From contig NZ_JAJJWH010000009.1 of NCBI RefSeq assembly GCF_020907245.1, forward strand, positions 1 to 64,000: DNA of 64,000 nt, read 5' to 3'. The position numbers and the translations under genes were made by a program. Origin of the DNA: Pontibacter harenae. Its GTDB lineage: Bacteria; Bacteroidota; Bacteroidia; Cytophagales; Hymenobacteraceae. The notes beneath the pieces were generated by a model. The model was not told the origin of the DNA, ran no database searches, and worked only from the letters and a program-made list of their open reading frames with translations. Of this stretch, positions 46,594 through 61,017 are shown piece by piece. Each line of letters opens with the position of its first letter. Positions within the stretch are counted from its first letter, which is position 1.

Positions 46594-46745
46594 AATTATG
46601 AATTAAAAATTATGAATTAGAAATAGGTGCGACTGTTAACGCATCTTTTCGGCGGGCAAGTTAAAAAAAGAAAGATACTTAAATGCGGCCCCTCAAGAAA
46701 TAACCTGGTAAACTACATTCGTAATTCATAATTCCTAATTTTTCA
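46594..46745. repeat. AATTATGAATTA inverted and direct repeats
   Basis: AATTATGAATTA occurs twice in tandem (46594-46605 and 46608-46619). Its inverse TAATTCATAATT occurs at 46722-46733, followed by CCTAATTTTT. The arms frame about 100 bases between smpB and the NlpC gene. Similar AT-rich repeats are scattered in Bacteroidota genomes (from memory). Confidence 0.55.
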
Positions 46746-46761
46746 TTGCGCGGTTGGCGCG

Positions 46762-59200: not shown

Positions 59201-59899
59201 ATGATCAACAAAAAAGTAAAGAACGCGCAGGAGGCATTACGGGGCGTGCAGGACAGCATGACGCTGATGCTCGGAGGTTTCGGCCTTTGCGGTATACCCG
59301 AAAACGCCATACAAGAATTGTTGCGACTTGGTGTGAAGAACCTTACCTGCATCTCAAACAATGCAGGAGTAGACGATTTTGGTATTGGCTTACTACTACA
59401 GAAGCACCAGGTAAAGAAAATGATTTCTAGCTATGTAGGTGAGAATGCCGAATTTGAGCGACAGCTGTTATCTGGAGAACTGGAGGTTGAACTGCTTCCG
59501 CAGGGCACACTAGCAGAGCGCATACGCGCTGGCGGTGCTGGCATTCCTGCCTTTTTTACACCAGCAGGTTATGGCACCGAAGTGGGCGAAGGAAAGGAGA
59601 GCCGTGAGTTCAACGGTAAAATGTACCTGATGGAAACCTGGCTAAAAGCCGACTTCTCTTTTGTAAAAGCCTGGAAAGGCGACACCGCAGGCAACCTGAT
59701 TTATAAAGGCACAGCCAGAAACTTTAACCCCATGATGGCAACCGCTGGCAACATTACTGTGGCCGAAGTGGAGGAACTGGTACCAGCAGGAGAATTAGAC
59801 CCGAACATGATCCACACCCCAGGCATTTACGTGCAGTGCATTTTTCAGGGGGAGAACTATGAGAAACGCATTGAGAAGAGAACAGTGAAACAGGAATAG
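59201..59899 (+). CDS. scoA: 3-oxoacid CoA-transferase subunit A
   Basis: This 232-residue alpha subunit of succinyl-CoA:3-ketoacid CoA transferase uses succinyl-CoA to activate acetoacetate. Motifs are [16 protein letters not shown] (CoA-transferase signature 1), [38 protein letters not shown], and [24 protein letters not shown]. The beta subunit (scoB) lies 461 bases downstream instead of being adjacent; a small gene with flanking inverted repeats lies between them. Confidence 0.96.
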
Positions 59900-59910: not shown

Positions 59911-60355
59911 TTGAAGATTTGGAGATGTACGAATTTGAAGATTTGGTAACATGGACGACCAAAAAGATAACCTGATTTTGACGCTTACACTGGATTTTGC
60001 TGTAGATACCATTCTATATGCAGAATTGCTGGAAACAAAGCGGAAGTATGTTATCTCTAATCAGCTACTAAAGAGCGGCACATCTATAGGAGCAAATGTT
60101 CGTGAAGCACAAAATGCAGAGAGCAAAGCAGATTTTATTCATAAGTTTAAAATAGCAGCCAAAGAAGTAGAAGAAACAGAATACTGGCTGCTACTCTGTC
60201 AGCGAGCTCCTACCTATCCTGATCCTGCACATCTCCAGGAAAAGCTCAAAGCTATCAAAAGAATCATCTCCAAAATCATTATCAGTTCTAAAAGCATCAG
60301 AAAGGAAAACTGAAGAGCATCTTCAAATCTCCACATTTTCAAATTTCCAAATCTA
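59911..60355 (+). mobile_element. Small cassette with inverted repeats around a four-helix-bundle gene
   Basis: About 33-base imperfect inverted repeats flank the gene at 59951-60313. The left (59911-59945) reads TTGAAGATTTGGAGATGT then ACGAATTTGAAGATTTGG. The right, read inward from 60350, has TTGGAAATTTGAAAATGTGG then AGATTTGAAGATG. About 24 of 33 positions agree. The cassette sits between scoA and scoB, which are normally neighbours. No transposase is inside and no target duplication is clear, so mobility is inference. Confidence 0.6.
59951..60313 (+). CDS. Four-helix-bundle protein (S23/IVP family)
   Basis: The 120-residue protein matches the 23S rRNA-intervening-sequence/S23 four-helix-bundle family: [63 protein letters not shown]. 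Members are found inside rRNA intervening sequences and at scattered sites, and relate in fold to the Avd accessory protein of diversity-generating retroelements. No reverse transcriptase is in the window. Its flanking inverted repeats suggest a small mobile unit. It is transcribed in the scoA-scoB direction. Confidence 0.9.
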
Positions 60356-60360
60356 AAATA

Positions 60361-61017
60361 ATGAGTCTAGATAAAAACGGAATAGCAAAACGCATTGCCA
60401 GGGAAGTAAAAAATGGCATGTATGTAAATTTAGGTATAGGTATACCAACGCTGGTAGCCAACTACATTCCTGAGGGTGTAGAAGTGGTGTTACAGTCGGA
60501 GAATGGTTTGTTGGGCATGGGACCCTTCCCTACCGAATCAGAGGTGGACGCGGACATGATTAATGCAGGCAAGCAAACCATAACCACGTTGCCTGGCTCT
60601 GCTCTTTTCAGTTCGGCAGAAAGCTTTGCCATGATACGCGGCGAGCACGTGGACTTAACTATCTTGGGTGCCATGGAGGTATCAGAGCGCGGTGATATAG
60701 CAAACTGGAAAATACCCGGTAAAATGGTGAAAGGCATGGGCGGCGCAATGGATTTGGTTGCTTCAGCCAAAAACATCATTGTGGCCATGCAACACACTGC
60801 CCGTGATGGTTCCTCTAAGCTTCTGAAAGAGTGTACACTCCCGCTCACAGGTGTGCAGTGCGTTAAAAAAATAGTTACTGACCTTGCTGTGCTAGAAGTA
60901 ACAGGCGAGGGATTTAAACTTCTGGAACGTGCACCAGGCGTAAGTATAGAAGACATAAAAAAAGCAACTGCTGGCAACTTATTAGTAGAGGGCGATATAC
61001 CAGAAGTTCAGCTGTAG
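60361..61017 (+). CDS. scoB: 3-oxoacid CoA-transferase subunit B
   Basis: This 218-residue beta subunit carries the catalytic glutamate, E47 in [10 protein letters not shown]. Further segments are [36 protein letters not shown] and [19 protein letters not shown]. Its leader comes from the right repeat of the cassette at 59911-60355, so any coupling with scoA would be altered. With ScoA it forms acetoacetyl-CoA for ketone or leucine/lysine breakdown. Confidence 0.96.

Follow-up and report, generated by a model that had tools for sequence, protein, structure and literature searches.

An S23 gene between complementary word arrays at the scoA-scoB joint of Pontibacter harenae: a candidate mobile cassette of operon joints

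Between scoA and scoB of Pontibacter harenae, in a stretch of 64,000 nt that was analysed as a whole (the window), lies an S23 gene with an array of short words on either side, the two arrays being complementary to each other. Gene and arms almost certainly form one unit and, between unrelated sites, word and S23 protein almost certainly go together. Such cassettes return to about a dozen operon joints, for the most part in sense orientation, and the unit appears and disappears without regard to its flanks. The explanation favoured here, a mobile, site-preferring cassette composed of an S23 gene and matched complementary word arrays that fills an operon joint from stop to start codon, is given slightly better than an even chance. 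Mobility of the cassette is likely, and the S23 protein is the probable reader of the words. The relevant features of the window are the following.

59201-59899, + strand: scoA, 3-oxoacid CoA-transferase subunit A, the upstream neighbour (TIGR02429, 269 bits; cut-off 128.5)
59911-59946, + strand: left arm of degenerate octamers, TTGAAGAT TTGGAGAT GTACGAAT TTGAAGAT TTGG (direct repeat D2, inverted pairs I1-I5)
59951-60313, + strand: S23 / 23S_rRNA_IVP four-helix-bundle gene, 120 aa (PF05635, TIGR02436, structure model)
60318-60354, + strand: right arm of reverse-complement octamers, CATCTTCA AATCTCCA CATTTTCA AATTTCCA AATC (inverted repeats, TRF, pairing with the left arm)
60361-61017, + strand: scoB, 3-oxoacid CoA-transferase subunit B, the downstream neighbour (TIGR02428, 326 bits; cut-off 243.55)
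46594-46747, no strand given: gene-less hairpin of AATTATG/AATTAGA heptamers with a loop of 92 nt, in an intergenic stretch of the window

The original prediction, made from the letters of this DNA, had placed an S23/IVP-type gene between the two transferase genes, and the matches to TIGR02429 and TIGR02428 together with those of the S23 protein (PF05635, 71.3 bits, cut-off 33.8; TIGR02436, 85.1 bits, cut-off 24) bear this out. The predicted structure of the protein has four helices (pLDDT 92.6), and the nearest known structures are 2rld (E 1.8e-6) and 2gsc (E 4e-3). The 2rld structure contains five chains, and a Xanthomonas S23 protein is described as a homopentamer in a report which also gives the role of PF05635 as unknown (PMC4990558). 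The surrounding inverted repeats, foreseen as imperfect and about 33 bases long, were recovered at 31-32 nt with 75-77% complementarity, along with another of 16 nt with 88%; what had been overlooked is that they are arrays of 7- or 8-nt words matching the S23 lineage. TRF reports 60318-60354 as a tandem array. The right repeat also forms the scoB leader, as predicted, with the scoB ATG 6 nt past its end. The arm score of the window element is 35, against a 99th percentile of 30.6 for 1019 same-geometry placements elsewhere in the loci. In the minimum-free-energy fold of the element RNA, 32 left-flank nucleotides are paired with the right flank, compared with 0, 12 and 17 when three other right flanks are swapped in. 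S23 is the sole gene between the window arms and PF05635 the one Pfam family matched; no transposase or recombinase gene was found between them.

Matching of the arms was evaluated on an order-level set of 106 elements, which consists of the five of the own genome, the same-genus matches listed except five, and eleven from other families. One of these eleven, L084, carries wrong coordinates and is contained in the 106-element scores; the later sets hold 105. The median own-arm score was 41, against 20 for mismatched partners (off-diagonal 95th percentile 34; n=106). An arm's own partner ranked best in 23 of 106 elements, among the top three in 62 and among the top ten in 96. Own arms exceeded the 99th percentile of 1019 same-geometry placements in 88/106 elements and the best of 20 shuffles in 99/106. 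When right arms were shuffled within sites, the observed total was reached in 0 of 5000 trials; taken site by site, from site 0 to site 10, it was reached in 0, 0, 2, 1142, 58, 33, 82, 2936, 5000, 3312 and 2507 of 5000. The sites without a within-site effect (3 and 7-10) are those whose members have one word in common. The possibility that the arms are an artefact of chance or low complexity, for which one might cite their degeneracy and the 18 of 106 own scores that do not rise above the control 99th percentile, is refuted by these mismatched-partner, shuffle and same-geometry controls, and the self-match of the arms at lags 7 and 8 speaks against it as well; its probability is negligible.

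In a phylum-wide set made up of the best 80 of 536 relatives found, the own-arm median was 46 against 36, the own partner ranked best in 8/80, and own arms exceeded the mismatch 95th percentile in 10/80. This poor distinction among the best 80 loci, which represent one S23 lineage, results from an octamer theme common to them. In 29 additional genomes of the phylum, the 29 top-scoring loci had an own median of 35 against 20, and 18/29 lay above the mismatch 95th percentile.

The correspondence between word and protein was measured on 183 elements, that is, the 105 and 78 phylum-wide loci (the 80 less the duplicates L162 and L163). Over 14802 pairs without flank homology, S23 identity was correlated with cross-arm word similarity (Spearman rho 0.56; Mantel 0/200). 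The mean word score was 19-21 below 50% identity, 27.8 at 50-60%, 33.6 at 60-70% and 38.9 at 70-80%, and it was 45.4 above 80%, a class of 4 pairs only. The genus alone gave a rho of 0.33 over 3799 pairs. Shared coding sequence is excluded as the cause of the correlation, since left arms were compared with right arms of other elements.

Word length behaves similarly. Clear arms were present in 164 of the 183 elements, with a self-match of 0.47-0.53 at lags 7 and 8 as opposed to about 0.32 in shuffles. The period was 8 in 10 of the 11 scoAB-site elements, the eleventh having no clear arms, and in 72/73 phylum-wide elements; elsewhere it was 7 in 74 elements and 8 in seven. In 154/164 cases the nearest S23 neighbour at another site had the identical period. 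An arm holds a median of 4.7 words where these have 7 nt and 4.6 where they have 8.

The S23 tree of the 105 elements was built on few columns, and 50 of its 102 branches are well supported. Sites 3 and 6-10 each form a single clade, sites 1 and 4 hold two lineages each on supported branches, and site 5 appears to hold two, for which one origin is possible; the split lineages at sites 1, 4 and 5 differ in word. The site 0 element of G054, a genome of another family, groups with the S23 proteins of site 6 (100/96) and bears the site 6 word. Similarly, L152 lies at another site and has an S23 protein within the T2 clade of the scoAB joint (defined below), with the T2 word in its left arm.

The elements sort into 11 sites (0-10), each common to at least three genomes, and the neighbouring genes were assigned by NCBIfam matches above cut-off or, where so marked, by matches below cut-off or our own reading.

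Site 0: thiolase/acyl-CoA dehydrogenase (above cut-off)
Site 1: left, lptB (above cut-off); right, olsH-like (below cut-off or own reading)
Site 3: tldD/tldE (below cut-off or own reading)
Site 4: odhB/lpd (above cut-off)
Site 5: left, olsH-like (below cut-off or own reading); right, dxr (above cut-off)
Site 6: mraY/murD (above cut-off)
Site 7: carboxylase (below cut-off or own reading)
Site 8: ABC permease/ATPase (below cut-off or own reading)
Site 9: macB-like (below cut-off or own reading); right, RND adaptor (above cut-off)
Site 10: left, odhA (below cut-off or own reading); right, odhB (above cut-off)

Both neighbours run in the same sense as the S23 gene in 89/105 elements; the gene is antisense to both in seven, and the arrangement is mixed or unclear in nine. 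Sense orientation dominates at 10 of the 11 shared sites, and site 8 is antisense in 4/4. In the 77 sense elements whose arms are clear, the median distance from the upstream stop codon to the start of the left arm is 0 nt, and it lies within -6 to +12 in 55. The best 80 of the 536 phylum-wide relatives include 25 between scoA and scoB, 40 at seven other shared sites and 15 that are single. The family itself is widespread, PF05635 being present in 157/198 sampled genomes of the phylum and in 51/59 searched relatives. Two S23 cassettes about 2 kb apart occupy one operon in G011 and G002 (L120, L135), on either side of odhB (sites 10 and 4). Site 4 also has three-arm variants (L120_3603, L128, L130, L135_1501), in which a full hairpin precedes S23 and a right arm follows it.

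In 37/37 genomes of the genus, the own genome included, scoB adjoins scoA. The scoA-scoB joint is empty in 24 of the 37, with a spacer of 9-21 nt that is exactly 11 nt in 15 of the 24, and these spacers sit where the arms lie in filled joints. Nine genomes carry an S23 gene there, from two lineages: T1, with TTTGAAGAT-type elements in five genomes (L018, L022, L029, L040, L045), and T2, with TGTGCTAAT-type elements in four (L021, L026, L032, L054), whose S23 proteins are only 57-63% identical to that of the window. Of the remaining joints, L047 holds a gene-less hairpin, and other sequence, perhaps remnants, fills L031 (43 nt) and L042 (209 nt); both were labelled 'scar' by eye, and no part of L042 was traced to an S23 cassette. 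The joint of G029 (L043) is a degenerate hybrid, the left end being of TGTGCTAAT type and the right end of TTTGAAGAT type, with no detectable S23. Empty sites with a target duplication had been suggested as a sign of insertion; the empty joints were there, and comparison by eye of filled with empty scoAB joints revealed no target duplication.

On the scoA+scoB tree, in which L043 was counted as T1 on the strength of its right arm, T1 takes 6 changes in 6 rows and T2 takes 4 in 4, and supported branches require every one of these changes. The 'empty' label takes 7 changes, with gains and losses inseparable on the tree alone. Sister genomes differ at this joint: G017 is filled and G026 empty (99/97), and G000 has T1 and G002 has T2 (98/90). 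The uniformity of the 11-nt spacer argues for gains at most scoAB joints.

The original prediction had named the presence of the same gene between scoA and scoB across distant genera as a mark of stable inheritance. Such presence was found, literally, in 36 loci (11 of the order and 25 phylum-wide, with at least two duplicates) from Pontibacter to Flavobacterium, Pedobacter and Chitinophaga, and the phylum-wide hosts also include Rufibacter, Adhaeribacter and Mucilaginibacter. Plain stable inheritance is not thereby restored, because the joint is mostly empty within the genus and two S23 lineages occur in sister species. A more elaborate vertical model would keep the insert as a regulator of its operon and let the arms evolve in concert, with inter-arm template switching (quasi-palindrome correction) maintaining complementarity as words drift. 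The arrays at one site do grade into one another (e.g. L098, by eye), and both the sense orientation and the snug fit between stop and start codon would suit such a history. As the sole cause it is contradicted by S23 and word groups that disagree with flanking-gene trees, and similar words recur with similar S23 proteins at unrelated sites; we regard it as improbable. The mobile-cassette reading, which the original prediction had also offered, gains support from the empty and filled joints within the genus, from occupants that depart from the flanking-gene tree and from the further copies of gene and repeats in the genome.

Movement relative to the flanks was also apparent at site 0. Word groups, assigned there by eye, are scrambled on a tree of 2.6 kb of flanking sequence, with 11 changes against a shuffled mean of 11.8. 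Well-supported branches number 3/17 in this flank tree, and two of the pairs that it joins, G031 with G018 (100/99) and G000 with G002 (96/96), unite different words. The ratio of same-word to different-word distance is 0.67 in S23 and 0.93-1.02 in twelve flank windows, which leaves flank recombination over long tracts unsupported; within 100 nt of the element the ratio is 0.93-0.95. These values bear on a second history, allelic exchange, in which old inserts at fixed sites are passed between species by homologous recombination of the joint and are frequently lost. In its favour are the small number of sites, mostly with one S23 clade per site, the divergence of same-word S23 genes (0.12-0.37), which is as large as that of the flanks, and the remnants and gene-less hairpin at the scoAB joint. 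The near absence of a trace of shared history within 100 nt of the element tells against it, unless the tracts were very short, as do the two S23 lineages forced by supported branches at each of sites 1 and 4 and the exact 11 nt in 15/24 empty joints, which is unlike ragged deletions. Allelic exchange is a possible but rather doubtful alternative to the mobile cassette.

The own genome (4.85 Mb in 112 contigs, 87.65% complete) contains five PF05635 matches, four of them open and one (L003) with in-frame stops. All five are framed by inverted word arrays, with a word that differs per copy (TTAGAT, AAATTAG, GAGTCNN, TTTGAAGAT and GAGTTAGAG; by eye), the arms of L003 being weak by score (23, rank 25 of 106). 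The words of four own S23 elements gave 12, 52, 43 and 15 matches in this genome, as against 1, 2, 0 and 2 for backward controls. Within 600 nt, the four words formed 15 facing pairs and 0 diverging pairs; four of the facing pairs flank S23 genes, and 11 are gene-less with loops of 28-116 nt. Thus the search for repeats and gene elsewhere in the genome, set as a check on the original prediction, yielded other copies of both, contrary to the lack of further repeats that had been named there as grounds for refutation. The window's own word recurs in the gene-less hairpins L006, L008 and L009 (by eye), and the word of the window hairpin at 46594-46747 resembles that of S23 element L002 in the same genome (by eye). 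L006 (G000:C49:211220-214236) is a hairpin of the window's word without a gene, lying inside an operon between apparent accB and accC (by eye).

Five of the 37 genomes have an S23 gene of TTAGAT type at site 0, and the TTAGAT word was commoner there, with 12-53 occurrences against 0-18 in the remaining 32 (p = 1.8e-4, uncorrected for kinship). The GAGTTAG word is abundant without a known cognate S23 (330 matches in G027, 266 in G012 and 195 in G020), and these counts contradict a strict dependence of words on S23. G022 has no PF05635 match; its 46 GAGTTAG matches show words that persist without detectable S23.

Such observations are what one would expect if the word hairpins were moved by other machinery and the S23 genes were cargo or beneficiaries caught between two arms. 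The 11 facing pairs of this genome that lack a gene, the thriving GAGTTAG word and the presence of one RVT_1 and three Y1_Tnp matches in the genome all favour this passenger model. Against it, word and period track the S23 lineage across unrelated sites, and two of the Y1 loci lie near other, GC-rich palindromes (by eye), though a word array is found about 1 kb from the Y1 gene of one of them, L159. We consider it unlikely, on a par with allelic exchange. The mobile cassette itself has evidence against it in the GAGTTAG word without cognate S23, in the antisense orientation at site 8, and in that neither a movement enzyme nor a target duplication was seen. The weak distinction of own arms among the best 80 phylum-wide loci, the lack of a within-site effect at sites 3 and 7-10, the like folding of both strands, the inseparable gains and losses on the scoA+scoB tree and the limited resolution of the site 0 flank tree and the S23 tree count against it too.

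At the RNA level, folding of the 105 elements gave a median of 29 left-flank nucleotides paired with the right flank, as opposed to 9 after right flanks were swapped, and the own pairing exceeded the swaps in 93/105. The antisense strand folds like the sense strand, and wobble mismatches are nearly balanced (152 vs 132), which renders wobble asymmetry uninformative as a test for RNA-level selection. The sense orientation in operons and the extent of the arms from the stop codon to near the start codon favour a stem at the RNA level that makes insertion tolerable.

In the mechanism proposed for the mobile cassette, the arms would fold as an intercistronic stem in the mRNA, much as happens in 23S rRNA intervening sequences (IVS) that bear an S23 gene; the insertion would thereby be tolerated, and the RNA would perhaps be cut by RNase III. 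A pentameric S23 ring would bind the array with about one 7- or 8-nt word per subunit; the coupling of protein and word, together with the 4.6-4.7 words per arm, suggests this mode of reading. TRAP, which reads triplets, offers a somewhat similar case. Copies might reach empty alleles via the hairpin, in the form of RNA or single-stranded DNA, using enzymes supplied by the host or by other elements; an RNA route is a guess.

One of the closest known systems is the 23S rRNA IVS. That of Coxiella burnetii is described as having an S23 ORF and complementary borders and as being excised by RNase III; its ORF is preceded by tandem GACAGAT heptamers, two or three in number, together with one degenerate heptamer (PMC4990558). 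The likeness to the window element comprises the S23 ORF within stem-forming complementary borders, the patchy occurrence at conserved sites and, in Coxiella, the heptamers upstream (PMC4990558). Repeats and fold show that the window element likewise has complementary borders capable of forming a stem. However, it lies between protein genes (scoA/scoB) rather than in an rRNA gene, and it has octamer arms on both sides and gene-less word copies elsewhere in the genome. Insertions in the rRNA of CPR bacteria are likewise reported to contain IVP ORFs (PMC11270868).

REPIN/RAYT systems consist of one gene framed by short inverted words, with gene-less hairpins of those words scattered elsewhere. 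The S23 element resembles them in being a gene framed by inverted words with dispersed gene-less hairpins, but S23 is not a Y1 (HUH) transposase, the arrays of 7-8-nt words are of another make, and the positions are fixed operon joints. Ownership of the words by a RAYT was unsupported, two of the three Y1 matches (L158, L159) being near other palindromes by eye. At these RAYT-like loci the GC-rich palindromes read GGATTTGCAATCC and CGAGCTTGCAGCTCG, unlike the S23 words (by eye).

The four-helix-bundle fold is also common to the DGR protein Avd, a likeness of PF05635 that has already been published (PMC10053308). The resemblance by fold to DGR accessory proteins noted in the original prediction stood as a remote match of the window model to Avd (4dwl, E 0.3, and 8ub7; E about 0.3 or above, TM about 0.65). 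It did not extend to a DGR, where a reverse transcriptase gene stands beside avd: this 87.65% complete genome has a single RVT_1 match, on contig C34, and the element is on C2. DGR membership was rejected.

MacGregor (2015) reported TAACTGA heptamers, for which no means of transfer was evident, from Beggiatoaceae, Cyanobacteria and Bacteroidetes (PMC4679880). Those heptamers are likewise 7-nt intergenic words, and TAACTGA-like words occur here in the arms of site 1; in that paper they are treated as direct repeats with one inverted case, whereas here the words form the arms of S23 cassettes and hairpins (PMC4679880). The term S23 is absent from its text (PMC4679880). Literature searches confined to an open-access library turned up no title linking S23 genes with word arrays in operons, and no prior report of S23 cassettes with word arms in mRNA operons, or of word and period following the S23 lineage, was found in them.

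A wider proposal, which we put forward only tentatively, is that S23/IVP proteins are ring-shaped readers of word arrays, with one 7- or 8-nt word recognised per subunit, and that each lineage maintains and spreads its own word family as cassettes and gene-less hairpins. If this is true, S23 cassettes would home into operon joints and, in other bacteria, into rRNA helices; they would constitute a mobile genetic system that itself carries no transposase, integrase or reverse transcriptase, and they would account for part of the unexplained heptamer repeats of Bacteroidetes. These results suggest that the rRNA intervening sequence is only one of the habitats of a wider element, mRNA operons being another. 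With S23 tied to the heptamers through a correspondence of protein and word that is open to testing in vitro, the role of PF05635 and the question of the heptamer repeats both become approachable.

A strict hairpin survey of 449 kb of the own genome returned mostly terminator-like hairpins. Word hairpins numbered 4, of which one is doubtful, and a Markov control gave 0; the count is a lower bound because the window's own element escaped the survey. In other genomes of the phylum, S23 genes are framed by arms of types CTAAGATGCTGAG and AGGCACAAAGG (L268, L282-L284), which we take to be common intergenic repeats of Flavobacterium and relatives.
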